Virus record (IMG/VR): IMGVR_UViG_3300036861_000469
Span: 1-50,033 of that record
Source: a virus
DNA length: 50,033 nucleotides
Strand: one strand, 5' to 3'
Position 1 is the first letter of the stretch. Every line of letters begins with the position of its first letter. Shown piece after piece: positions 1,771 to 13,877 of the stretch. A program made the translations under genes and the position numbers. Under the pieces are notes generated by a model. That model was not told the origin of the DNA, did not search any database, and worked only from the letters and a program-made list of their open reading frames with translations.

Positions 1771-2201
1771 GCCCGACCCCGGTAGTCGAGCGCGTCATCA
1801 CCGTCCTCGGTGACAGCCGGCCGGTGACGCGGACTTACGGTGACGGGTCGGTGGACTGCCCGTACTGCGTCGCTGCGATCATCTACCCCGCAACGGAGTG
1901 CAGCAACCCCGCCTGCGACTCGTCGAAGTACTGGACCCCCGCGGCGCTGCAGGAGCGTCGCGACCGCGAGGCTGCCAGGCTGGCGGAGGAGGCGCGACGC
2001 AAGCGCGACCACGCCTGGGCAATGCAGCGCGCAGAGGAGGACCGCATCCTCCACGAGCAGTGGCGGAAGGATCAGGTCGCCGAAGCAATCAAGCGCGGCG
2101 CTTGCTTGCTGTGTCTCTTCCTGCCAGGGTGGGACAGGGTGAAGTTCGTGAAGCACCGGAAGCCGTGCCCGAAGCGAAACCGGACACCAGGAGGACGCTG
2201 A
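1767..2201 (+). CDS. Hypothetical zinc-finger-like protein, 144 aa
   Basis: An N-terminal CPYC and C-x4-C pair (VDCPYCVAAI then ECSNPAC) looks like a treble-clef or zinc ribbon. The middle (about 60-105) is a long Arg/Glu-rich helix, probably a coiled coil (RRDREAARLAEEARRK). The tail is basic with CLLCLF. Start ATG 1767 overlaps the previous stop; its stop TGA 2199-2201 overlaps the next ATG as TGATG. Function unknown. Confidence 0.7.
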   Translation: MSPTPVVERVITVLGDSRPVTRTYGDGSVDCPYCVAAIIYPATECSNPACDSSKYWTPAALQERRDREAARLAEEARRKRDHAWAMQRAEEDRILHEQWRKDQVAEAIKRGACLLCLFLPGWDRVKFVKHRKPCPKRNRTPGGR

Positions 2202-2581
2202 TGCTCAAGGCCAACGCAGTCGCATACATCGTCGACGATCTTGAGACGGCACGTGCGGAGATCAAGAAGCAGATCCCGCCTTCTGGTCATCGAGAGCCGA
2301 CGGTCATCGTGCCAACACCAGATCTGAAGAAATTGGATCCGGTCCACCGCTCAACGCGGGTCCTCATCGAGGTCGTCTCCTGGGGACTCTGGCTGGCGAT
2401 GACGGTGCATCCGGAGAGGGTGATCCGCGCGCCGCTTCGACACTTCGAGTCGAAGCAAGGCGTGAAGACTTCCTTCGTCGAGAATGCGACGTGCGTCCTT
2501 ATCACCAAGGCTGAGTACCTCCGCGAGGTCAGCCGGCAGATGGCGAACCTGGCGAGCGTGATGGCGAGTTTCCTACATTGA
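2201..2581 (+). CDS. Hypothetical protein, 126 aa
   Basis: Starts at ATG 2201, sharing one base with the previous stop. Mixed alpha/beta composition with no recognised motif; one hydrophobic stretch (VLIEVVSWGLWLAMTV) may be a buried helix rather than a membrane segment. Slightly AT-richer than its neighbours. Function unknown. Confidence 0.65.
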   Translation: MLKANAVAYIVDDLETARAEIKKQIPPSGHREPTVIVPTPDLKKLDPVHRSTRVLIEVVSWGLWLAMTVHPERVIRAPLRHFESKQGVKTSFVENATCVLITKAEYLREVSRQMANLASVMASFLH

Positions 2582-2778
2582 GTCGCTCCCGCATGATGGA
2601 CCTCTTCGGTCTCGGCACCCTCACCCCGCGCATCGTCTACCGTCCCGCGATCTACGAAGCGCTGCAGCGCCCCGGGACACCCACGACGCGTCAGGCGCTT
2701 GTGAATGACTTCCTCTCTGCCGAGGTCCTGCTCCCGCTGGAGGAATGTCTCCCCGGTGGGAAACTCGGTCACGCATAG
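2578..2778 (+). CDS. Hypothetical protein, 66 aa (TTG start)
   Basis: Proposed start TTG 2578 overlaps the previous stop as TTGA, matching the coupling used throughout; ATG 2593 or 2596 are alternatives. No motif recognised. Ends at TAG just before a strong promoter, so it is probably the last gene of this group. Confidence 0.5.
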   Translation: MSRSRMMDLFGLGTLTPRIVYRPAIYEALQRPGTPTTRQALVNDFLSAEVLLPLEECLPGGKLGHA

Positions 2779-2781
2779 GAC

Positions 2782-2811
2782 TTGACAACCCCCGGGGTGC
2801 GACCGTATACT
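2782..2811 (+). promoter_or_regulatory. Sigma-70-type promoter (conserved phage promoter 1)
   Basis: TTGACA (2782-2787), 18-base spacer, TATACT (2806-2811). The flanks TTGACAAC and CGTATACTCC are shared with the promoters at 4923 and 35606. The predicted start near 2818 leaves a leader of about 11 bases before the ATG at 2829. Confidence 0.85.
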
Positions 2812-2828
2812 CCGGACCGGAGGTGCCG

Positions 2829-3281
2829 ATGAACGCCTGGCAGTCACGGATCGACTCGATCAAATCCACGATTGAGATGTATCGTCGGGAACTCGAAGTG
2901 CTCGAAGCGCTCGGGGATATCCCGGCGGCATATGTCTACCCGAACTTCTTCGGCAAGGACATCGACATCACCCCACCGCAGGGAACCACCGCTCGGGACC
3001 TGGCGCTGAAGGTTATCGCCCGCCTGCGCGAGAAGGGGCAGGCGCCTCCGATCGCGACGAAGAAACTCGAAGCCTCGACTGGGAAGATCACCTACGAGGT
3101 CCCCGGGCCGATGGAAGGGTGGACGCTGAAGGTCTCCGGAGGGGACCCACGCTGCAGGGTCGTGCCAGTGACGAAGACCCGGACGGTAGCAGCGAAGCCC
3201 GCGGTCGCAGCGGTGGAGGCGCACGAGGAGGAGTACACGGAGTACGTGATCGAAAATCCCGAGGAGTGTGGCGCATCATGA
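2829..3281 (+). CDS. Hypothetical protein, 150 aa
   Basis: First gene behind promoter 1; start ATG 2829 follows CCGGAGGTGCCG. The N-terminus is an amphipathic helix (WQSRIDSIKSTIEMYRREL) of the sort used for oligomerisation; the C-terminus is acidic. No catalytic motif recognised. Being promoter-proximal suggests early, abundant expression. Ends in ATGA overlap with the next gene. Confidence 0.7.
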   Translation: MNAWQSRIDSIKSTIEMYRRELEVLEALGDIPAAYVYPNFFGKDIDITPPQGTTARDLALKVIARLREKGQAPPIATKKLEASTGKITYEVPGPMEGWTLKVSGGDPRCRVVPVTKTRTVAAKPAVAAVEAHEEEYTEYVIENPEECGAS

Positions 3282-3994
3282 AGCGCAGCCCGGACGAAGA
3301 GATCTACGCCGCGATGGATCATATCGAGGAGATGCGCGAACGCTTCAGCGCAGACACCTGCGGCGAAGCCTGGCGCAGGCTGGGCGGACAGGCTGGAGTC
3401 GAAGAGTGGCGGAAGCGGACGAAGCCGATGCCGAACATCGTGATGGAGATCAACGCAGGATTGGTCGAGTCATCGCTGAAGACCGCGGCGGAGAAACTCC
3501 GCGACGCGACGAAGGCATTCATCCAGAAGGAGTTCTACAGCAGTGGGGTGCCATCGGTCACTGGTGATCTGGCGCATCGCTACGTCCCCTCCGCGGCCGA
3601 GGACTACGCACTCTTGCGTGAGAAGCCGGCCGTCCAGACGATCGTCAAGAATCTCCGCCACTACGACCCTGCCGACATCGTCCGTGGGATCAACGTCCTC
3701 GCAGGCGCCACACCCGGAAGCCGATGTGCCTTCTGTGGCGTGGCAGGGATCGGCGCGGTGCATATCCCCGGGTGCGCGTTCTCGACGGTGCCGGCACCCC
3801 CGCAGCCGGTGAAGACCTACGGTGGGATGGGCGCACTCCCCGGCTCCCCTATCCCGCCCGCGCCCGTGAAGGCAACGCTCTCCGCCGGCAAGGACCGTCC
3901 CTTCGTGGTGAAGAAGGACAGCCTCCTGAACCCCGCGCCGAAGGGGTTCTCGGGCGCCGGGAGCCTGCCGTACGATTCGGACTACGACGGCTGA
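3278..3994 (+). CDS. Hypothetical protein with C-terminal Cys/His cluster, 238 aa
   Basis: The N-terminal two thirds are helical. Around 145-165 there is a possible zinc site: SRCAFCGVAG, then HIPGCAF (C-x2-C ... H-x3-C). The C-terminus is Pro/Gly-rich and probably disordered. Start ATG 3278 overlaps the previous stop; stop TGA 3992-3994 overlaps the next ATG. Function unknown. Confidence 0.65.
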   Translation: MKRSPDEEIYAAMDHIEEMRERFSADTCGEAWRRLGGQAGVEEWRKRTKPMPNIVMEINAGLVESSLKTAAEKLRDATKAFIQKEFYSSGVPSVTGDLAHRYVPSAAEDYALLREKPAVQTIVKNLRHYDPADIVRGINVLAGATPGSRCAFCGVAGIGAVHIPGCAFSTVPAPPQPVKTYGGMGALPGSPIPPAPVKATLSAGKDRPFVVKKDSLLNPAPKGFSGAGSLPYDSDYDG

Positions 3995-4350: not shown

Positions 4351-4420
4351 GGTGGCGTTGGTGTAACGGTAGCACCCAAGGTCGTGACCCTTGAGGAGGG
4401 GTTCAACTCCCCACGCCACA
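4351..4420 (+). tRNA. Probable tRNA-His (GTG)
   Basis: A cloverleaf folds here: acceptor GTGGCG/CGCCAC, D stem GGTG/CACC, anticodon stem CAAGG/CCTTG enclosing loop TCGTGAC (anticodon GTG), and T arm GGGG-TTCAACT-CCCC. Oddities are C rather than U at position 33, a weak fifth T-stem pair, and no encoded CCA. The reading frame that crosses it is incidental. Confidence 0.75.
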
Positions 4421-4432
4421 CAGGACCGAACG

Positions 4433-4648: not shown

Positions 4649-4917
4649 CCTGTCCTCGATGCCAAAGCGAGATCTGTCCTTCGACCTGGAGCGGAATGCA
4701 ATCCGAGGCGTTCTGGGCTTCTGCGATGCAGACCTGTGCGCTCACGCGTATCGCGAACCTGCTTGAGTCGCGCATCGTCGTCGATGTCGCGCCTGACCCA
4801 TTCGGTTGCTATCGTATCAGCATCCATCTCGGACCTGCGGGACCCTCGTCCAACGGCAAGACGCCTGGCCTGCAACCAGGAGATCCGGGTTCGATTCCCG
4901 GGGGCTCCACCACCTAA
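4645..4917 (+). CDS. Small zinc-knuckle protein whose 3' end runs into a tRNA gene
   Basis: Starts ATG 4645 with MTCPRCQSE. The reading frame continues through the whole downstream tRNA (4840-4912); its last 25 or so residues (SSNGKTPGLQPGDPG...) are the typical translation of a tRNA. Either the protein really overlaps the tRNA or the gene lost its own stop. About 65 N-terminal residues look like genuine protein. Confidence 0.5.
   Translation: MTCPRCQSEICPSTWSGMQSEAFWASAMQTCALTRIANLLESRIVVDVAPDPFGCYRISIHLGPAGPSSNGKTPGLQPGDPGSIPGGSTT
4840..4912 (+). tRNA. tRNA, anticodon TGC (Ala) by loop position; Cys (GCA) possible
   Basis: Acceptor GGACCCT/GGGCTCC (one mismatch, one G-U), D stem GTC/GAC, anticodon stem CCTGG/CCAGG with 7-base loop CCTGCAA, T arm CCGGG-TTCGATT-CCCGG, discriminator A and an encoded CCA (4910-4912). 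Centring the loop gives TGC, but position 33 is then C; reading the T of CTGCAA as U33 would give GCA (Cys). Isotype is therefore uncertain, the gene itself is not. Confidence 0.85.
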
Positions 4918-4982: not shown

Positions 4983-5855
4983 ATGGGACTGAAACTTCTC
5001 GACTACGGACTATTCGGATGCGGCAAGACAAACTTCGCCGCGACCATGGCGGAGGTCTGCGACATCGGAGTCATCGACACCGAGTCGCGGTGGCAGTACT
5101 ACACCGATCCGCATCCCACCGTGAAACCGAAGCGCCCGAGCGACGAAGCCGTCAAGCGCGGGGTCCCACCGCTGATCTACGCGAACCCCCGCCGGCTGCG
5201 TCAGGACATCGCCTGGCTTCCGAAGTCGGAACACGTCATCTGGCTCGTGCAGACGATGGACCCCACCGAGGCGTGGGAGTGCAGGAAGATCTGGGGAACG
5301 GATCCTTCCATCGGTGGCCAGGTCTGCGACAGCGCCTCGGTGATCTGGGACATGCTCCAGGACTCCCGCGAGACCCACTCCGCGAACGGGAAGGAACTCG
5401 GCGGGCTCTCCTGGGCGCCGGTGAAGCGCGTCGACCGCAGGATGACCTACACCATCCTGGAGGTCGGGCAGCACTTCATCGCGAACTGCCACAAGCAGGA
5501 GATCATGAACAAGGAGATGCAGGTCACCGGGTCACGGCCGTGGGCTGAGAAGCGCATGGCACACTGGTTCGACCTCGTTCTCCAGTTCGCCTTCGGCTCC
5601 GAGGACGCCGCGCCCAAGGCCCGCATCGAGGAGGAGAAGATCCTCGGCGGGATGGGTGGCGCGCTGAAGAAGGGAACGGTGCTGGCCGCGCCGACCTTCA
5701 AGCAGATCCTCACCCTCGCGGGAGGGGAGCGCAAGGTCCTCACGGACGTTCTACCGCAGTCGACCATCGACGAGCGGACGCAGCAGTTAGTCAACCAGGT
5801 GGCGGCTATGCCACCGATTCCCGGGGTCGATAGCCCCACAGGAGGTCAGCAGTGA
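4983..5855 (+). CDS. RecA-like/AAA ATPase, probable Sak4-type recombinase
   Basis: 290 residues. A P-loop GLFGCGKT occupies residues 9-16 near the extreme N-terminus, then VIDTESR (Walker-B-like strand). Size, very early P-loop and context (a companion protein next, a RecB-like nuclease and dUTPase following) fit the phage AAA_24/Sak4 group of single-strand annealing ATPases. It would assist recombination or replication by loading on ssDNA. First gene after promoter 2, with site CTGGAG upstream; stop overlaps the next GTG (GTGA). A general phage NTP-binding protein is the alternative. Confidence 0.7.
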   Translation: MGLKLLDYGLFGCGKTNFAATMAEVCDIGVIDTESRWQYYTDPHPTVKPKRPSDEAVKRGVPPLIYANPRRLRQDIAWLPKSEHVIWLVQTMDPTEAWECRKIWGTDPSIGGQVCDSASVIWDMLQDSRETHSANGKELGGLSWAPVKRVDRRMTYTILEVGQHFIANCHKQEIMNKEMQVTGSRPWAEKRMAHWFDLVLQFAFGSEDAAPKARIEEEKILGGMGGALKKGTVLAAPTFKQILTLAGGERKVLTDVLPQSTIDERTQQLVNQVAAMPPIPGVDSPTGGQQ

Positions 5856-6574
5856 CAGACACTGCTTTCGCTGGTGGTCCGCAGGCCGGATCGACGTTCG
5901 ATCCGATCTACGACAACTACCAGGCCGCGCCCCTTCAGGACGCGCAGGACCAGGAGGACGCGCTTCCCCGCGGCTACTACCTGGTGCAGTTCGATGGCGG
6001 GAAGGGTTCCTTCACGAAGGACGAGAACATTCCGCAGGTCCGTCTCGGCGCCGAGGTCATCCTGGGCATCGAGGGTACGGTCGGGCGGAAGGTCTTCGGC
6101 TCGATCAAGTACGGGGTCAGCAAGTTCGACTACCAGAACAACGAGCAGGGAGTCCGGGTGAAGGTCCAACTCACCAACGAGAAGTGGCAGGAGAAGGGGA
6201 AGGCAGAGGTCGTCGACCTGAAGCGCGTCGCCACGGTCCTCGGCTTCCTGCAGCCCCTCCCGAACCGCCCGCACACGGCGGAGAGCCTCTCGCAGTTCGC
6301 CGGGCAGTTCGCCGGCAAGCGAGCGGTCCTCTTCATCGGGTCGCTGCCCGGCCGCGACGACTTCGGTCCCAGCAACTTCTTCAAGTGGGATTCGATCCGT
6401 GCGGTGAACGAGGAGGTCCGTGACAAGACCGGCGCGATCGTCGCGAAGACGGCCACCGAGTTCTGCCAGAAGAAGATCGAGATGGCAGCCACTCGGGCAC
6501 GCAACAAGGCAGGCAAGGCTGCGCCGACGGCCACGCCCACCGCGCCCGCAGGGAGTGCCGCGGACTTCTCCTAG
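5852..6574 (+). CDS. Possible ssDNA-binding/recombination accessory protein
   Basis: 240 residues from GTG 5852. A beta-rich middle (GYYLVQFDGGKGSF, VRVKVQLTNEKW) is followed by a flexible Ala/Pro/Thr tail ending in DFS, reminiscent of the acidic tips of SSB proteins. Translational coupling to the ATPase supports a shared role on ssDNA, but I cannot place it in a family with certainty. A strong hairpin terminator lies 40 bases downstream. Confidence 0.5.
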   Translation: MTDTAFAGGPQAGSTFDPIYDNYQAAPLQDAQDQEDALPRGYYLVQFDGGKGSFTKDENIPQVRLGAEVILGIEGTVGRKVFGSIKYGVSKFDYQNNEQGVRVKVQLTNEKWQEKGKAEVVDLKRVATVLGFLQPLPNRPHTAESLSQFAGQFAGKRAVLFIGSLPGRDDFGPSNFFKWDSIRAVNEEVRDKTGAIVAKTATEFCQKKIEMAATRARNKAGKAAPTATPTAPAGSAADFS

Positions 6575-6612
6575 CACGTAGGAAGTCCCGTCGCTCAGTC
6601 CGCTCGACCCAG

Positions 6613-6651
6613 GGGTGCGTGGTAGACCCTCTCTACCACGCACCCTTCCTT
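6613..6651 (+). terminator. Intrinsic terminator
   Basis: A perfect 14-bp stem, GGGTGCGTGGTAGA (6613-6626) with TCTACCACGCACCC (6632-6645), 5-base loop, followed by TTCCTT. It closes the operon started at promoter 2. Confidence 0.85.
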
Positions 6652-6653
6652 GT

Positions 6654-6784
6654 GGAGATGAACGCTGCAGCACCCGGACGAGCCCCGAGCCAGGGGTCGG
6701 GTGGCACCTACCTAGTGGCACCGGGAAAGGATCCATTCTCCGGAAACTAGGATCGCATAGAGGGGTGCTGCAGCGTCCATCTCC
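6654..6784 (+). ncRNA. Long inverted repeat, candidate structured RNA/leader
   Basis: Bases 6654-6675 pair with 6763-6784 over 22 positions with a single A-C mismatch, enclosing 87 bases that contain smaller hairpins (CCGA/TCGG) and a direct repeat GTGGCACC (about 6701 and 6715). There is no reading frame inside. It sits between a terminator and the dUTPase ribosome site (AAGAGG, about 6785), so it could be a free small RNA, a processed leader controlling dUTPase, or a DNA-level site. It matches no RNA family I recognise. Confidence 0.5.
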
Positions 6785-6796
6785 AAGAGGTCTCAA

Positions 6797-7252
6797 GTGT
6801 ACGAAGTCCTGATCCGTCACAGCGACGAACGCGAACGCATGGAGCGTGGACGCGTCCCGACGCTCCTCCGCTCGAACCCTACCGACGCCGGCTGGGATCT
6901 CGAAGCCTGGCTGCCGCACGGTCCGTACGGTGTCGACCCCGGGGAGCGCTTCGCCGTCCCCACGGGGATCTGTATCTGCCCGCCACCGGGTGTGGGATTC
7001 CGCATCGTCGGACGGTCCTCGACGTACTTCAAGCACGGCCTGGAGATCTCGGAGAGCATCGTCGACCCGGGGTACCAAGGCGCACTGATGATCATGCTGC
7101 TGAACCGCACCGCGCGACAGGTCGTGATCCAGAACGGGCAGCGCCTCGCACAGGTGATCTTCTTCCCGATCGTCCCGGTCACCTTGACGCCGGTCGCGGA
7201 GTTTCCAAGGACCCCCCGCGGCACCCGCGGGCTGGGGTCCACGGGGGAGTGA
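6797..7252 (+). CDS. dut: Trimeric dUTPase
   Basis: 151 residues from GTG 6797. All five dUTPase motifs are present: DAGWDL (30-35), GRSS (72-75), a third motif with VDPGYQG including the uracil-stacking Tyr93, NGQRLAQ (113-119) and a C-terminal RGTRGLGSTG. It hydrolyses dUTP to dUMP and pyrophosphate, keeping uracil out of phage DNA and supplying dUMP. It forms a set with the UDG-like protein at 8736. Stop TGA 7250-7252 overlaps ATG 7252. Confidence 0.93.
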   Translation: MYEVLIRHSDERERMERGRVPTLLRSNPTDAGWDLEAWLPHGPYGVDPGERFAVPTGICICPPPGVGFRIVGRSSTYFKHGLEISESIVDPGYQGALMIMLLNRTARQVVIQNGQRLAQVIFFPIVPVTLTPVAEFPRTPRGTRGLGSTGE

Positions 7253-8046
7253 TGAGCGACTACGCATCCGAGTCCGGACACTGGTACAAGCCTGACGGGT
7301 CTCCGTGCTACACCATCCGCGGGAAGAACGGTCGCGAACGCAACACCACCTTGCGCGACGCGCGGACGATGAACCTCTTCCCGTCCGTCACGACCGTCAC
7401 CGGCCAGGCTGCGGCGCCTGCGCTGGAACTCTGGAAGATCAAGCAAGCCGTCCTGGCCGCGCTCACGCTCCCGCGCGTGGAGGGGGAGTCCTCCGAGATG
7501 CTCGTGGAGCGGATCCTCACCGACAGCCGCACCGAGGCGAAGGCAGCCGCAGACCGCGGGACCCTCATCCACGGCGCGATCGAGCAGAAGATGCTACACC
7601 AGGCACCGGCCGCGGACCTGGTCCCGTTCGCCGACGCTGCGATGCTCGCGCTGGACGACCGCTTCCCTGGCGCCACGTGGTCGATGGAGAAGTCCTTCGC
7701 ATCACCGATAGGCTTCGGCGGGAAGGTGGACCTCCACTCCATGGCAGGCTTCGGATCCCCCGACGGGATCGTCGTCGACTACAAGACCAAGGACATCTCC
7801 GCGATGCAGAACGTGAAGTGCTACGACAACCACTTCATGCAGATCGCTGCCTACCGTGCCGGCCTGGGGATCCCGAACGCCCGCGGAGCGAACATGTTCG
7901 TCGCGAGGCAGCGCGGACCGTTCGACCCCGTCTCGGTCGTGCTGATCGAACACGACCCCGAGGACCTGGCGCGTGGGTGGAGGATGTTCGAGGCACTCCT
8001 CGCGTACTTCTACGCCCGCACGGGACTGGTGCAGGTGCCCGCGTGA
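7252..8046 (+). CDS. RecB-like PD-(D/E)XK nuclease
   Basis: 264 residues; ATG 7252 preferred over GTG 7249. The order of motifs fits the Cas4/RecB-like superfamily: a His in GTLIHGAIE, Asp in GGKVDLHS, DYKTK with catalytic Asp and Lys, then QIAAYRAG (the QxxxY motif). Likely a dsDNA exonuclease that produces single-stranded ends for the ATPase encoded at 4983, or that degrades host DNA. No Cys cluster is seen, so an Fe-S-free type. Stop overlaps the next GTG. Confidence 0.8.
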   Translation: MSDYASESGHWYKPDGSPCYTIRGKNGRERNTTLRDARTMNLFPSVTTVTGQAAAPALELWKIKQAVLAALTLPRVEGESSEMLVERILTDSRTEAKAAADRGTLIHGAIEQKMLHQAPAADLVPFADAAMLALDDRFPGATWSMEKSFASPIGFGGKVDLHSMAGFGSPDGIVVDYKTKDISAMQNVKCYDNHFMQIAAYRAGLGIPNARGANMFVARQRGPFDPVSVVLIEHDPEDLARGWRMFEALLAYFYARTGLVQVPA

Positions 8047-8554: not shown

Positions 8555-8739
8555 AGCGGGTGGAGCGCGAGACCATCGTCGGCAGGAAGGTGACGTCAAC
8601 TTCGGATGGCTACTTCCCTGTCGTCCCCGGACCGATGTGGATCTGCATCCTCTGCTGGGCGATCACCCTCAACGAGACCCGTGAGGACCACCGGAAGGTC
8701 TGTCGAGAACGATACACCGAGTTCGGTCCGACGTCATGA
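8551..8739 (+). CDS. Small zinc-finger-like protein, 62 aa
   Basis: GTG 8551 (GTGA overlap). Contains ICILCW followed by H-x3-C (EDHRKVCRER), a C-x2-C...H-x3-C arrangement able to bind zinc. Its stop overlaps the next ATG (8736-8739). Function unknown. Confidence 0.6.
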   Translation: MKRVERETIVGRKVTSTSDGYFPVVPGPMWICILCWAITLNETREDHRKVCRERYTEFGPTS

Positions 8740-9941
8740 TCCTCGTCCCCCCCGACGGTCCTCTGGACGCTCGCTTCATCCCGATCGGTGAAGCCCCGGG
8801 TCCCGAGGAGGAGAAGCGCGGGATCCCGTTCGTCCCGACCGCTCCGTCCGGGAAGATCCTGAAGGAAGGCGCGCTCTCCGGCAGCGTCCCGCGCGACAAG
8901 ATGCGAATCCTCAACGTGAGCCCGTACCGCGTCGAGTGGGAGGACGGTCCGCTGCACCTCATGCGGATCCGCGACCAGGTCGCCGCGCTCCAGGCCGAGA
9001 TCGATCGCTGCACCGAGGCGCGCACACTCCTGCTCATCGGCGCCGACGCAGCCGAAGCCGTCCTGGGGATCTGCGGTCCGCAGCGCGACCCGGACAACCC
9101 GAAGAAGCGCCTGACCCCATCGATCCAGGACTACCACGGATCCACCTTCACGCGCGCGGAGGCGCTCGCGCTACAAGCCTGGGCGCGCGAGAACGGCATC
9201 CCCACCGTGCAGGGGCTCCCGCCGAAGGTCCACAGCGTCTGCGTCACCCTCCACCCCGCGTTCGCGCTGCACGGGAACATGCCGCGATTCAAACTCGCGA
9301 TCAAGATGGCGATCGGTCGTGCGGCGCTTCTCAGCCAGTCTGCGGTCGCGCCGTCGCGTCCCGGGGCGGAGGTCTTCGATCTCTACGCGACACCCGAGGC
9401 ACTCACCGGGTGGCTAGGCGCCTGGGGACCCGTGGACGTCACGTCCGACGTGGAGACCCCGCGGGACAACCCGAAGCGGATCCTCCTCTGCGGCGTAGGT
9501 ATCGCCACGGAGAAGATCCTCGTCTTCGACTGGACCGCGGCGCACGTGGAGATTATGCGTCGGTGGTTCCGCATGGCTGGCGCGACGGTCGGGCACAACT
9601 TCCTCTACGATCTCCGGGCGTTCGCAGCGTACGACGTCCGGCCGGTGAAGCCGCGGTCGATCTATGACACCATCGCTGCCTGCGCTCGGCTGCAGCCCGT
9701 GGACGACGAGGTGCGGGACTTCCCGTGGCTCTCCCTCACGACGTGCGTGGCCAGGCACCGCCCGGGGTTCTACTACTGGAAGGAAGCGGAGCGGACGTGT
9801 CAGCAGGCGCTCTACCAGGCTTCGTTCCCGTGGTGCGCGCCGGAGGACTTCGACAGGCTCTACAACGGAGTGGACGTGTACCAGAACAGCGCGCTGTGGA
9901 TGGTGGTGAAGCCGCTGCTGCAGAGAGAGGGGATGCTGTGA
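8736..9941 (+). CDS. UDG-like domain fused to 3'-5' exonuclease (N-terminal half of a split DNA polymerase)
   Basis: 401 residues. N-terminal 1-190 resembles the family 4/5 uracil-DNA glycosylase fold: GEAPGPEEEKRG near the start, PFVPTA, and a late HPAFAL. Residues 215-401 are a DnaQ/Pol I proofreading domain with all three motifs: ExoI DVE, ExoII VGHNFLYDL and ExoIII YNGVD. The protein ends at LLQREGML, where undivided phage family A polymerases go on into the helix leading to the polymerase domain; that continuation appears at 11866. UDG-exo-polymerase order is known from SPO1-type polymerases. Glycosylase activity is not assured. Confidence 0.85.
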   Translation: MILVPPDGPLDARFIPIGEAPGPEEEKRGIPFVPTAPSGKILKEGALSGSVPRDKMRILNVSPYRVEWEDGPLHLMRIRDQVAALQAEIDRCTEARTLLLIGADAAEAVLGICGPQRDPDNPKKRLTPSIQDYHGSTFTRAEALALQAWARENGIPTVQGLPPKVHSVCVTLHPAFALHGNMPRFKLAIKMAIGRAALLSQSAVAPSRPGAEVFDLYATPEALTGWLGAWGPVDVTSDVETPRDNPKRILLCGVGIATEKILVFDWTAAHVEIMRRWFRMAGATVGHNFLYDLRAFAAYDVRPVKPRSIYDTIAACARLQPVDDEVRDFPWLSLTTCVARHRPGFYYWKEAERTCQQALYQASFPWCAPEDFDRLYNGVDVYQNSALWMVVKPLLQREGML

Positions 9942-10432
9942 AGATCTGTCAAGGACCGGGATGCGAGGCAATAATCCCGGAGGGAGCAAGACCTGACAAG
10001 ATCTACTGCGCACCAAAGTGTCGTCGCGCACGTTCGATAGCAAGATATCCGGAAAGGTATCGTGCCCGACGACTTGCATGGTTGGCTCAAAATTACAATA
10101 GAATTCGATCTGCCGATCAAATTTACATGAGACGATTAAAGGATGCCTTCCATGCTGTCTATGGATCAGAGTGCATCTGCTGTGGAGAATCTGAACCAAG
10201 GTTCTTGACTATCGCACACCTCAATCACGACGGCGGAATGCGTCGGAAACAATTGGGTGGCATCGGTACTCGTGGGGCGGGCAGATGCGGTAAAGCCACA
10301 CTCATCGTTGATCTGAAGCGCCGTGGATGGCCAAAGGATGAAGGGATTGCCGTGCAGTGCTTCAACTGTAACTGTGCGACTTCGCTTCCCGGTAGTGTCT
10401 GTCCGCATGAGATCCAAAGGAAAAGTCTATGA
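9938..10432 (+). CDS. HNH-type endonuclease, probable mobile gene
   Basis: 164 residues from GTG 9938 (GTGA overlap). The N-terminus has a Cys cluster (CQGPGC, then YCAPKC). The core shows ECICCGE, HLNHDGG and CFNCNC, the Cys-paired beta-beta-alpha metal layout of HNH endonucleases. The DNA from about 9950 to 10520 is clearly AT-richer than both sides and uses unlike codons (ATA, AGA), a sign of transfer. Such free-standing HNH enzymes drive the spread of DNA into polymerase genes. The stop overlaps the methyltransferase ATG (10429-10432). Confidence 0.75.
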   Translation: MKICQGPGCEAIIPEGARPDKIYCAPKCRRARSIARYPERYRARRLAWLAQNYNRIRSADQIYMRRLKDAFHAVYGSECICCGESEPRFLTIAHLNHDGGMRRKQLGGIGTRGAGRCGKATLIVDLKRRGWPKDEGIAVQCFNCNCATSLPGSVCPHEIQRKSL

Positions 10433-11307
10433 TCGCACAAGATCGATGGCGTCTTCATCTCGCAGATATCACCCAGAAGATCAACTTTCCACTTGTGAGT
10501 AATCAGGCGGATGCAATAGTGACTGATCCTCCCTACGAGATCGACATCCACGGGCTGGAGTGGGACGGCAGCGGAGTCGCGTTCGACGTCCGTACATGGC
10601 GCAGGGTCTTCGAGGTCGCGAAGCCCGGGGCGTATATGGTCGCGTTCGGATCCCCCCGGCGCTGCCACCGGATGATCTGCGCGGTCGAGGACGCCGGCTG
10701 GGAGATCATGGACACGATCTTCTGGCTGCACGCCCAAGGCTTCCCGCGGGTCCAGACCGTCCTCAAGCCTGCCCAGGAGACCATCGTCCTCGCGCGCAAG
10801 CCCGCGAAGGGTCGCAGCCTGAAGCAGAACCTCGGGGAGCGCGGGGTGGGGGCGCTGCAGATCGAGCGCTGCAGAGTGAACGGGCTCTGGCCGGCGAACG
10901 TCATGGTCGACGAGACCGCGAAGGCACTGCTGCCGAAGTCGGAGTACGGAGACCTGCGAAGGTTCCTCTTCGTCTCGAAGCCGTCCACCGCGGAGCGGGA
11001 CCTGGGCTGCGACGCGCTGCCGATGAGCAAGAAGCACGTCGTGATGAAGGACAAGGACGCCTCCGTGGGTAGGAACTTCCATCCCACCGTGAAGCCTGTC
11101 GATCTCATGGAGTGGCTCTGCCGGCTCGTCACCCCACCGCGCGGGCTTGTCTACGATCCGTTCACCGGCTCCGGGACCACCGGGGTAGCCGCGCTGCGGA
11201 TGGGGTTCAGGTTCGTGGGTACCGAGAAGAACAAGGAGTACATCCCGATCGCGCGGGCACGCATGTCCCGGGCAGCGGTCAGCAAGGAAGCGAGGGTGAA
11301 CTGGTGA
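10429..11307 (+). CDS. DNA methyltransferase (N6-adenine/N4-cytosine, beta-type order)
   Basis: 292 residues. The catalytic DPPY is at 33-36 and the SAM-binding DPFTGSGTTG at 243-252 near the C-terminus; motif IV before motif I is the beta arrangement. It methylates DNA, perhaps protecting the phage from host restriction or from its own HNH enzyme. No cognate restriction gene is seen. The first 90 bases share the AT-rich composition of the HNH gene, then GC rises sharply, so the transfer boundary lies inside the gene's 5' end. Stop overlaps the next GTG. Confidence 0.88.
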   Translation: MIAQDRWRLHLADITQKINFPLVSNQADAIVTDPPYEIDIHGLEWDGSGVAFDVRTWRRVFEVAKPGAYMVAFGSPRRCHRMICAVEDAGWEIMDTIFWLHAQGFPRVQTVLKPAQETIVLARKPAKGRSLKQNLGERGVGALQIERCRVNGLWPANVMVDETAKALLPKSEYGDLRRFLFVSKPSTAERDLGCDALPMSKKHVVMKDKDASVGRNFHPTVKPVDLMEWLCRLVTPPRGLVYDPFTGSGTTGVAALRMGFRFVGTEKNKEYIPIARARMSRAAVSKEARVNW

Positions 11308-11537
11308 CGCTCACAGACGCAGGACGCATCCGAGTCAGGTCCCTAGCGGACGCGCTCGAAGCCTTCATCGCGAAGGAACTCGGCCCGGTCCTCGAAGGGG
11401 ACAAGACCCTCACGACCTACGAGGTCCGCCTGGACATGCCGGCGCGGCTGCTCTACAACGAAGTGAAGACCCCCGACACCGCGAAGGTCACGATCTGCCT
11501 GAACTTCTTCCTGCCGACGGATGGGATCGATCTGTGA
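11304..11537 (+). CDS. Hypothetical protein, 77 aa (paralogue of next gene)
   Basis: GTG 11304. Contains TYEVRLDMPARLLYNE ... KVTICLNFFLP, closely paralleling TFDLELECPADLLYKE ... KVKLNLTFFAP in the next gene. This looks like a tandem duplication. Beta-rich, no catalytic residues recognised. Part of the segment separating the two polymerase halves. Confidence 0.65.
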   Translation: MTLTDAGRIRVRSLADALEAFIAKELGPVLEGDKTLTTYEVRLDMPARLLYNEVKTPDTAKVTICLNFFLPTDGIDL

Positions 11538-11866
11538 CCGTCACCCCCGAAGCGAAGGAGAAGATCAAAGAGATGCTGCAGATGTGCTACGCCTTCATCC
11601 TGCACCAGATGCCGGAGATCCTCATGGACGGGAAGACGCAGCAGACCTTCGATCTCGAACTGGAGTGCCCGGCGGACCTCCTGTACAAGGAATGCAAACT
11701 CCGCACGGCCGACATCGGGAAGGTGAAACTCAACCTCACCTTCTTCGCGCCGGAGAGGAAGTCGATGATCCTGTTTCCGTTCGGAAGACCGCAGCCGCTG
11801 GGGGTGCCGGAGAAGCCCGAGCCAGTGAAGCCACCGACGATCCCCGAGCCCGACCCGGAGGACTGA
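11534..11866 (+). CDS. Hypothetical protein, 110 aa (paralogue of previous gene)
   Basis: GTG 11534 (GTGA overlap). Shares the TF-x-LEL-x-C-PADLLYKE core with the gene before it, then adds a Pro-rich C-terminal tail (PEKPEPVKPPTIPEPD). Stop TGA 11864-11866 overlaps the polymerase ATG. Function unknown; position suggests a polymerase accessory, or passenger cargo. Confidence 0.65.
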   Translation: MTVTPEAKEKIKEMLQMCYAFILHQMPEILMDGKTQQTFDLELECPADLLYKECKLRTADIGKVKLNLTFFAPERKSMILFPFGRPQPLGVPEKPEPVKPPTIPEPDPED

Positions 11867-13551
11867 TGGGGCTCTTCCTGGACGTCCTCTCCCCCGCGAT
11901 CCCCGTCCTCGCGCGCCTTGAGGAGCGTGGGATCCCGCTGGACGTCCGCGTGCGCGACGACCTCCGCGAGAAGACCCAGGCCAGGCTGGACGCTGCGTGC
12001 GCGAAGATCATCCCCCTCGCGCAGCAGTACCACACCCGCCGGCTCGCGAGGATCCAGCAGGCCATCGACCGGCTCTACCAGGACGCCTCCGACGCAATCG
12101 CTGCGATCCCAGCGTGCCCGGAGCATCCGGAGTACTTCGGGAAGATCGCACGCAAGAAGTCCATGTGCTGCATGAAGCACTTCGACGACATGAAGCCTGC
12201 CTGGGCGAAGGTCCGGGACCTCAAGGCACGCATCGTGAAGGGGCGCGGGAAACTCGACCAGGTCGGCGACGCGTTCGATCCCAAGAACCCCACGCACTGG
12301 CGCTTCCTCCTCTTCGACGAACTCGGGCTGAACCTCCAGCCGACATCCTACACCGACAAGATGACCCCGCAGGTGAACGAACACGCCTTCGACCTCCTAC
12401 GGCGCCGGAACCCGCACATCGAACTCCTGGCGATGCAGGTCGACATCCAGGAGACCAAGACCCGGCTCACCACCCGCCTGGCCGTGGAGCCCGAAGGCGA
12501 CGGCCGGGTCCACACCCCGTACTCGATCCACCGCACGTGGAACCTCCGCGTCTCCAGCGGCAGCGACGCCTCCGAGGCGGAGGAGATCCGCGAGGGGGTC
12601 GGCAACATGCAGAACGTCCCGAAGCGCGACCGGATCATGTACCGCGCCGAGCCCGGGAAGGTCTTCATCCAGCCCGACCTCTCCCAGGTCGAAGCCCGCG
12701 TGCAAGCCTGGCTCGCGAAGGACATCAAGATGCTCACCGCCTGGCGGGACGGCATGGACATCCATGCGATGACTGCTGCAGCGATCTATGGCATAGACCG
12801 CGTCGGGGACTGGGTCGAGGAGACGAAGCGCCGGCTGGTACGCATCGCCGGGATCATGCAGCCGATCCGTCAGATGGGGAAGAAGCGTCGCCACGGTGGG
12901 AACTACGGCATGGGGGATTCCAAGTTCGCGGACATGACCGGCATCACCCTGCAGGAGGCACGGCACATCTCCGCGGCGGACAGGGTCGAGTGGCCGAGGC
13001 TCTATGCCTTCCAGAAGGAGGAGATCGAGCAAGCGTCGCGGGATCGATTCCTGCGGAACCCATTCGGGGCGCTGGTGCGGTTCTACTCCTTCCGGCAGCG
13101 CGATGGCGTCTGGGAGATCTGCGCCCGAGAGGAGGCACTGTCCTTCCGGCCGGCTTCCACCGTCGCGTGCATGATCATCATGATGCTGGATCCCGTGGAC
13201 GAGGTCCCCGGTGGGGAACTCCTCACCACGACGCACGATTCCTATCTCTCTCAGGTTGACAACGACCCCATAGCGATCGTAAACTATGTCCAAGCGGTTC
13301 GTGAGATCATGTCGAGGGAGTGGCCACAACTTGGTGCGATCGAAGGCTTCGGATACTTCAAATGCCCGGTGGACTTCAAGGTCGGGTTCAACTGGGGCGA
13401 TCGCCACGACTGCAAACCGACATGCCAGAACCGCCGGCCGGAATCTCCGAACGAGCCTTGCGACGATCACAACCCCGATGGCCTGGAGGACTTCGACAAA
13501 TGGATGAAGCAATACACACCCGCCGCATGCTCGCCCGCCTCCGCGGTGTGA
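11866..13551 (+). CDS. polA: Family A DNA polymerase, polymerase domain only
   Basis: 561 residues, without an exonuclease domain. It opens GLFLDVLSPAIPVLARLEERGIPLD, the segment that in intact phage Pol I proteins links exonuclease and thumb, directly continuing the end of the protein at 8736. Motif A is DLSQVEARV, motif B carries K-x-x-R...NYGMG, and motif C is THDSYL: the catalytic Asp is kept but the usual HDE is HDS. A 60-residue Cys-containing insertion (ACPEHPEYF ... SMCCMKHF) lies in the thumb region and the C-terminal tail has CKPTCQNR. It replicates phage DNA, presumably with the exonuclease part as a second chain. Confidence 0.9.
   Translation: MGLFLDVLSPAIPVLARLEERGIPLDVRVRDDLREKTQARLDAACAKIIPLAQQYHTRRLARIQQAIDRLYQDASDAIAAIPACPEHPEYFGKIARKKSMCCMKHFDDMKPAWAKVRDLKARIVKGRGKLDQVGDAFDPKNPTHWRFLLFDELGLNLQPTSYTDKMTPQVNEHAFDLLRRRNPHIELLAMQVDIQETKTRLTTRLAVEPEGDGRVHTPYSIHRTWNLRVSSGSDASEAEEIREGVGNMQNVPKRDRIMYRAEPGKVFIQPDLSQVEARVQAWLAKDIKMLTAWRDGMDIHAMTAAAIYGIDRVGDWVEETKRRLVRIAGIMQPIRQMGKKRRHGGNYGMGDSKFADMTGITLQEARHISAADRVEWPRLYAFQKEEIEQASRDRFLRNPFGALVRFYSFRQRDGVWEICAREEALSFRPASTVACMIIMMLDPVDEVPGGELLTTTHDSYLSQVDNDPIAIVNYVQAVREIMSREWPQLGAIEGFGYFKCPVDFKVGFNWGDRHDCKPTCQNRRPESPNEPCDDHNPDGLEDFDKWMKQYTPAACSPASAV
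13256..13285 (+). promoter_or_regulatory. Promoter-like site inside the polymerase gene
   Basis: TTGACA (13256-13261), 18-base spacer, TAAACT (13280-13285). The match extends to the shared flanks TTGACAAC and CGTAAACT, so it belongs with the phage promoter group, and could raise transcription of the nucleotide and lysis genes downstream of 13548. Confidence 0.55.
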
Positions 13552-13877
13552 ACCTCCGGCGCCACCAGGAGAACCCGGTGCGCCAGCAGGACGACGCGAA
13601 CATGGCCGCGCGCGAGGCGACCTTCTCCTGCGGGATCTGTCAGCATGGGGGTGGGACCCTCGTGTCAACGCGGAAGGATATCCCTGCGCCGGAGTTCCCG
13701 TATCGGCACGCGCACCCGAGGTTCTGCGTGCAGTACCACTTCCCGCGCAGAGTCTTCGCGCCGTTCGCCAGGCACATCAAGCAGGCGAACAGCAGGGTGA
13801 AGCAGCGCTTCAACGCCATCGGCCGGACCGAGGTGGCTCCGCGGCGCACGGCACCTCGACCGCAGAAAGCCGGGTGA
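13548..13877 (+). CDS. Hypothetical Cys-containing protein, 109 aa
   Basis: GTG 13548 is chosen because it overlaps the polymerase stop (GTGA); in-frame ATG 13500 and 13527 would overlap more. FSCGICQHGG, then Cys near FCVQYHFP, could form a metal site; the C-terminus is strongly basic (NSRVKQRF, RRTAPRPQKAG), suggesting nucleic acid binding. Family unknown. Confidence 0.6.
   Translation: MNLRRHQENPVRQQDDANMAAREATFSCGICQHGGGTLVSTRKDIPAPEFPYRHAHPRFCVQYHFPRRVFAPFARHIKQANSRVKQRFNAIGRTEVAPRRTAPRPQKAG

Follow-up and report, generated by a model that had tools for sequence, protein, structure and literature searches.

Does a phage replicase whose gene lies in two pieces owe the break to the endonuclease gene found beside it, and do its two products still act as one enzyme? 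The question is raised by the IMG/VR virus record IMGVR_UViG_3300036861_000469, of which we analyzed a stretch of 50,033 nucleotides over its full length (the window). Here a protein with a uracil-DNA glycosylase (UDG) and a 3'-5' exonuclease domain (chain 1) and a family A DNA polymerase domain (chain 2) are encoded by two genes separated by 1.9 kb. An HNH endonuclease, a methyltransferase and a pair of small paralogues are encoded between the two halves, a gene order that the initial annotation, made from the sequence alone, had given correctly together with its coordinates. The same annotation proposed that a homing element had opened the gene and that the halves now work as two subunits. 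We find that the two chains join exactly, that similar splits recur in related phages, and that the HNH gene is probably not what opened the gene.

Two chains and the junction between them

Pfam profiles assign UDG to chain 1 (4e-11) and DNA_pol_A to chain 2 (1.5e-25). Against PHROG 17, the family of phage UDG-exonuclease-polymerases, the match of chain 1 stops at column 829 and that of chain 2 begins at 837. In a profile of intact phage polymerases, which also took in the joined protein of the window, the two chains occupy positions 1-342 and 341-787, respectively. Aligned with unsplit enzymes from phages of Gordonia, Mycobacterium, Rhizobium and Microbacterium, the two chains meet without a gap when the methionine is counted, and in the alignment with the nearest clade there is a single surplus residue, the start methionine. 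PHROG 17, the profile and the alignments thus agree with the earlier proposal that the products starting at 8736 and 11866 read as one uninterrupted SPO1-type enzyme, and the alignment with intact family A phage polymerases, suggested at that time as a check, gives an exact junction with at most the start methionine extra.

Judged by these comparisons, chains 1 and 2 together make up a complete SPO1-type UDG-exonuclease-polymerase from which no residue is missing. The order of UDG, exonuclease and polymerase, with intact catalytic residues, is that of PHROG 17, and the full-length alignment extends to the enzymes of Bacillus phage Goe25 and Microbacterium phage Triscuit and to the phiLo polymerase (9qhs). 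All these SPO1-type enzymes are, however, single polypeptides, whereas the window has two genes. In chain 1 the exonuclease residues D238, E240, N288, D292, Y376 and D380 are conserved, while chain 2 retains D271, R335, K339, Y347, H457 and D458, among which D271 and D458 are the polymerase metal ligands and R335, K339 and Y347 belong to the fingers. Motif C of the polymerase reads HDS, a form that is common within its clade.

The AlphaFold2 models have a mean predicted local distance difference test score of 88.8 for chain 1, whose final helix spans residues 369-397 of 401, and of 82.9 for chain 2, which opens with a helix at residues 3-21. In Foldseek searches chain 1 matches UdgX/family 4 UDG and the phiLo and phiVC8 polymerases, and chain 2 matches Taq, Klenow and Bst polymerases (E about 1e-18). 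Based on the alignments, the helix ends in the models and the placement of each chain by Foldseek, the cut lies in the loop that joins the exonuclease and polymerase domains.

Split phage replicases as such are already known. In the OM43 phages MEP401 and MEP402 a family A PolA is encoded in two open reading frames (ORFs) with a small unknown ORF between them, as in the window, yet according to the available part of the report (PMC10580990) the cut lies inside the polymerase domain, with the exonuclease and the N-terminal part of the polymerase on ORF 1, whereas the window is cut at a domain boundary. UDG, which the window has, is not mentioned in that part of the source. Aeromonas phages 25 and 44RR have a two-chain replicative polymerase, gp43A/gp43B; only one of the two carries a homing endonuclease gene where the polymerase is divided, and the halves of the split gp43 of the T4-like phage 25 co-purify with polymerase activity (PMC2988022). 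These proteins belong to family B and lack UDG, in contrast to the predicted pair of the window, which is of family A with UDG. Within a partial coverage of the literature, we found no description of UDG-exonuclease-polymerases with a cut between the exonuclease and polymerase domains or ahead of Exo III.

Splits in related polymerases

Scans of viral contigs with polymerase alignments yielded about 250 loci, partly overlapping; wide alignments contained no stretch of sufficient conservation to serve as a query. Relatives without the insert, which the initial annotation had recommended looking for, are numerous but distant (about 30% identity or less): the enzyme is a single chain at 158 loci, about 110 of them distinct (110 by our count). 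The split enzymes fall into three separate lineages, consisting of the window itself, a contig referred to here as L103 (IMGVR_UViG_3300037087_000168) and a clade of 66 loci (clade 2).

L103 encodes chain 1 at 5116-6246 and chain 2 at 6512-7816, and is cut at the very alignment column at which the window is cut. The unrelated 89-amino-acid gene between its two chains had no relative among the polymerase loci compared with it, and is not accompanied by an HNH gene. In the sister loci L084, L088 and L093 the enzyme is unsplit, and the KVDTFY of L088 corresponds to KV-stop and M-TFY in L103. A tree in which the window and L103 are made to group together is rejected by the approximately unbiased (AU) test (p 0.0102; log-likelihood 68.9 lower), which was run on a quick tree under a homogeneous model. 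A common origin being rejected on these grounds, the two splits would be of separate origin despite their identical column.

Clade 2 (L199-L264 with L172, L180, L188 and L192) is almost wholly uncultivated and comprises 56 clusters at 90% identity. Every one of its loci is cut just before the Exo III motif, whereas the enzyme is unbroken in the sister group formed by L073, L055, L014 and L016 (support 0.974). The distance between the two genes ranges from an overlap to 2.3 kb with a median of 385 bp, and does not exceed 20 bp in 10 of 65 loci. The intervening genes encode nucleotide-metabolism functions, DUF7768 proteins and methyltransferases, with few HNH genes among 64 ORFs. As a result of the position of the cut, chain 1 carries the D, E and D of Exo I/II (66/66, 66/66 and 67/67 sequences), and chain 2 carries the Y and D of Exo III (68/68 each). 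Such conservation of the exonuclease residues across 56 diverged clusters is otherwise hard to explain, and we consider it probable that the two chains of clade 2 contribute in trans to one exonuclease active site.

A cultured member of clade 2 is Caulobacter phage Kuura (OQ067476.1, L266). Its gene 029, annotated as hypothetical, matches the UDG-exonuclease chain (E 3e-89), the polymerase chain is matched by gene 026 (E 2e-112), and two small genes separate them; in the available part of the Kuura paper the split is not mentioned where the polymerase is discussed. Kuura and the rest of clade 2 resemble the window in having two neighboring genes with variable genes between them, but are cut inside the exonuclease domain, before Exo III, and not at the exonuclease/polymerase joint. 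The split of clade 2 is independent of that of the window. Taken together, cuts of the UDG-exonuclease-polymerase arose on three or more occasions, in one case through the active site for proofreading.

Three further loci were not counted as splits. Overlapping-frame breaks in the middle of the exonuclease and at the polymerase C-terminus, in L022 (5840-6017) and L099 (4668-4731), respectively, look like frameshift errors. In L039 (816-1075), which begins inside the gene, a gapped break before motif A is probably a frameshift or assembly error.

The HNH gene and the origin of the split

The window encodes a terminase, a portal, a head protease, a major head protein, a helicase and a tail fiber, and the features around the polymerase are collected in Table 1. 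Adjacent genes share stop/start overlaps of either 4 nt (GTGA/ATGA) or 1 nt (TGATG), five in a row, and a GGAGG lies five to nine bases 5' of the ATG of chain 2. Paralogues A and B are 36% identical (E 2e-13); paralogue B had no match among phage records.

Table 1. Features of the split polymerase locus and its surroundings (positions in the window)
Feature	Position	Strand	Remarks
tRNA gene His (GTG)	4351-4421		upstream of the replication genes
tRNA gene Ala (TGC)	4839-4912		upstream of the replication genes
Chain 1, UDG and DEDDy 3'-5' exonuclease	8736..9941	+	401 aa; ends in LLQREGML, TGA
Chain 1, uracil-DNA glycosylase domain	residues about 1-181
Chain 1, DEDDy 3'-5' exonuclease domain	residues about 220-397
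HNH endonuclease gene	9938..10432	+	GTG start; 4-nt overlap with the chain 1 stop
Foreign AT-rich tract	9942..10550		HNH gene and first ~120 bp of the methyltransferase; from GC profile and GC3
N6/N4 DNA methyltransferase (DPPY)	10429..11307	+	292 aa; Pfam N6_N4_Mtase 8e-31
Paralogue A, small protein	11304..11537	+	77 aa; native composition, GC3 0.86
Paralogue B, small protein	11534..11866	+	110 aa; native composition, GC3 0.89
GGAGG, probable ribosome-binding site of chain 2	11857..11861	+	from sequence; inside the 3' end of paralogue B
TGATG stop/start overlap of paralogue B and chain 2	11864-11868
Chain 2, family A polymerase domain (thumb, palm, fingers)	11866..13551	+	561 aa; starts M-GLFLDVLSPAIPVL
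Palm departures in chain 2	13129-13242		residues about 422-459

The HNH protein is a genuine member of its family (PHROG HNH 1e-3; 34-38% identity to annotated phage HNHs). Its gene stands directly after chain 1, beside the junction, and lies in AT-rich DNA, as had been observed before (51% GC versus 64-68% in the two polymerase genes). This position is what one would expect if an HNH homing element had entered and opened an unbroken gene, carrying the other genes with it, and the halves had then become subunits. Precedents exist in T4-like phages: in phage Aeh1 the nrdA gene is split by mobE, so that an essential enzyme is encoded in two coding regions at an HNH gene, as in the window (PMC2988022). 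In Aeh1, however, the split is attributed to the insertion of the HNH gene, whereas in the window the HNH gene looks secondary.

The composition of the insert does not follow such a scenario. The G+C content at third codon positions (GC3) of the HNH gene is 0.46 and its codon index 0.27, against medians of 0.87 and 0.70, and similar values are found in the first ~120 nt of the methyltransferase gene (0.50 and 0.31) but not in its remainder (0.90 and 0.75). Chain 2 has a GC3 of 0.87, equal to the median of the background genes (minimum 0.75; 44 genes scored). A 60-base GC profile runs at 0.42-0.62 up to ~10540 and at 0.65-0.70 thereafter. The break in composition is thus situated within the methyltransferase gene (10429-10550), whose AT-rich 5' end looks as if co-converted with the HNH gene, and the foreign tract stops at ~10540, short of the start of chain 2 (the insert runs to 11868), leaving the body of the methyltransferase and both paralogues native. 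Since the tract stops within the methyltransferase gene, this gene would either have been present beforehand or have arrived with the tract from a donor of the same arrangement. To regard the methyltransferase simply as homing cargo was rejected: its homologues are ordinary upstream neighbors of intact polymerase genes and form a recurrent neighborhood: of 109 loci that do not belong to clade 2, 33 have one at most 2 kb upstream of the polymerase. An 8-nt direct repeat, GTGAAGCC, is found across the insert ends, though not located at the junctions. As a side observation, a homologous HNH ORF in L349 (2459-2950) is contained, in a different frame, within a long ORF (1821-3812), both ends of which match the methyltransferase of the window; possibly, an HNH gene has been placed in a methyltransferase gene there.

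The HNH protein itself and its homologues point in the same direction as the composition. The residue before the catalytic His is Ala in the window and Asp in 29 of 30 scored homologues (IAHLNHDGG versus IDHINNDG), and the window HNH may be a catalytically dead endonuclease. Among 80 loci with HNH homologues, 3 have a family A polymerase gene nearby, and in no case is that gene divided by the HNH. The composition of the tract, the Ala in the HNH and the splits without HNH in L103 and most of clade 2 make the opening of the gene by a homing element unlikely in our assessment. This part of the initial annotation is not borne out, as the foreign tract covers only the HNH gene and ~120 bp.

Two other explanations would leave no split enzyme at all. 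The insert could be an intron or intein whose splicing restores a full-length enzyme, and group I introns with HNH genes do occur in family A phage polymerases according to earlier work cited in one report (refs 42-44 in PMC10580990). Yet an Rfam search of 8600-13600 gave no match at E<=1, the insert is filled by four tightly overlapping ORFs, chain 2 has a GGAGG and ATG of its own, and no intein-like extra sequence is present at the end of chain 1 or the start of chain 2; splicing is thus highly improbable. For L103, an Rfam intron search likewise gave no match at E<=0.1. An assembly chimera or sequencing artefact might be suspected in a virus record without close relatives. Such an error would nevertheless have to create the uninterrupted series of stop/start overlaps with native composition on both sides and over the greater part of the insert, and L103, which is an independent contig, is cut at the same residue, which reduces this explanation to a marginal one.

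Two subunits and the meaning of the splits

We consider it likely that the arrangement in the window reflects fission of an ancestral enzyme, with chains that re-associate and an HNH gene that is a later passenger. Comparison with the intact enzymes shows that an ancestral single-chain gene of the SPO1/PHROG 17 type underwent fission at the exonuclease/polymerase joint. Both halves stay in one run of overlapping genes, which suggests that their translation may be coupled. The methyltransferase and the paralogues, native in composition, would have come to lie between the halves, and the HNH tract, which would also have taken the place of the methyltransferase 5' end, may be a later and perhaps dead passenger and not the cause of the split, as suggested by its composition, the Asp to Ala change and the two other split lineages. 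The two products would most likely form a replicase by non-covalent binding, chain 2 doing the copying and chain 1 adding both proofreading and the glycosylase domain.

That the halves of the window work as two putative subunits, as the initial annotation proposed, is plausible since both catalytic cores are kept and since in clade 2 the exonuclease site is spread over two chains. The case is weaker for the window than for clade 2, because in the window neither active site is divided by the cut and a lone polymerase domain can work. Uncoupling of the two proteins has to be weighed in this context: chain 2 would then be a lone polymerase without proofreading, and chain 1 a separate repair protein with UDG and exonuclease functions or one that is being lost. 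A Klenow polymerase domain without its exonuclease domain (HoLaMa) folds and has been studied catalytically, although it needed stabilizing mutations (PMC6457538), and the palm of chain 2 carries unusual substitutions. Against uncoupling, the exonuclease residues are all conserved and the linkage of the genes is maintained, and the exonuclease site of clade 2 needs residues from both chains, which do not vary among 66 to 68 sequences. We regard uncoupling as rather unlikely, and favor fission with re-association of the chains.

Several observations nevertheless weigh against this explanation. A palm Gln, which we take to be the equivalent of E. coli Q849, is Ala in the window and Gln in 254 of 255 other sequences (66/66 in clade 2 and 188/189 elsewhere). 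The position of a nearby palm Arg, presumably equivalent to R841, is occupied by Glu, although a one-residue shift could put an Arg of the window there. The polymerase branch of the window is long (1.48), and together with the palm substitutions this suggests that the polymerase may be impaired or weakened, or else specialized. The order of events at the window is inferred from composition only, no close relative having been found: single-protein scans gave none for chain 1 or chain 2 (the best relatives have about 30% identity or less), a scan with the helicase gave two matches, one in a record without a family A polymerase match and the other in a record whose only such match falls below the curated cut-off, and a scan of GTDB species genomes gave no close relative of the window. 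An HNH gene may also have opened the gene first and have been overwritten later.

Across the family, we lean towards a repeated conversion to obligate two-subunit replicases, in which the proofreading site of clade 2 is formed in trans and the window represents an independent case cut at the exonuclease/polymerase joint. In the evolution of family A replicases, copying and proofreading halves have come apart several times, twice at the identical residue, and yet have remained linked. Proofreading supplied in trans becomes testable, as does what might be gained from it, be it separate dosing of the chains or exchange of the exonuclease subunit. With Kuura, the second split site can be approached in culture, and a likely function can be given to the hypothetical gene 029 of this phage. 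For the annotation of broken phage genes in general, the locus advises caution: an HNH gene beside a broken gene need not be the cause of the break.

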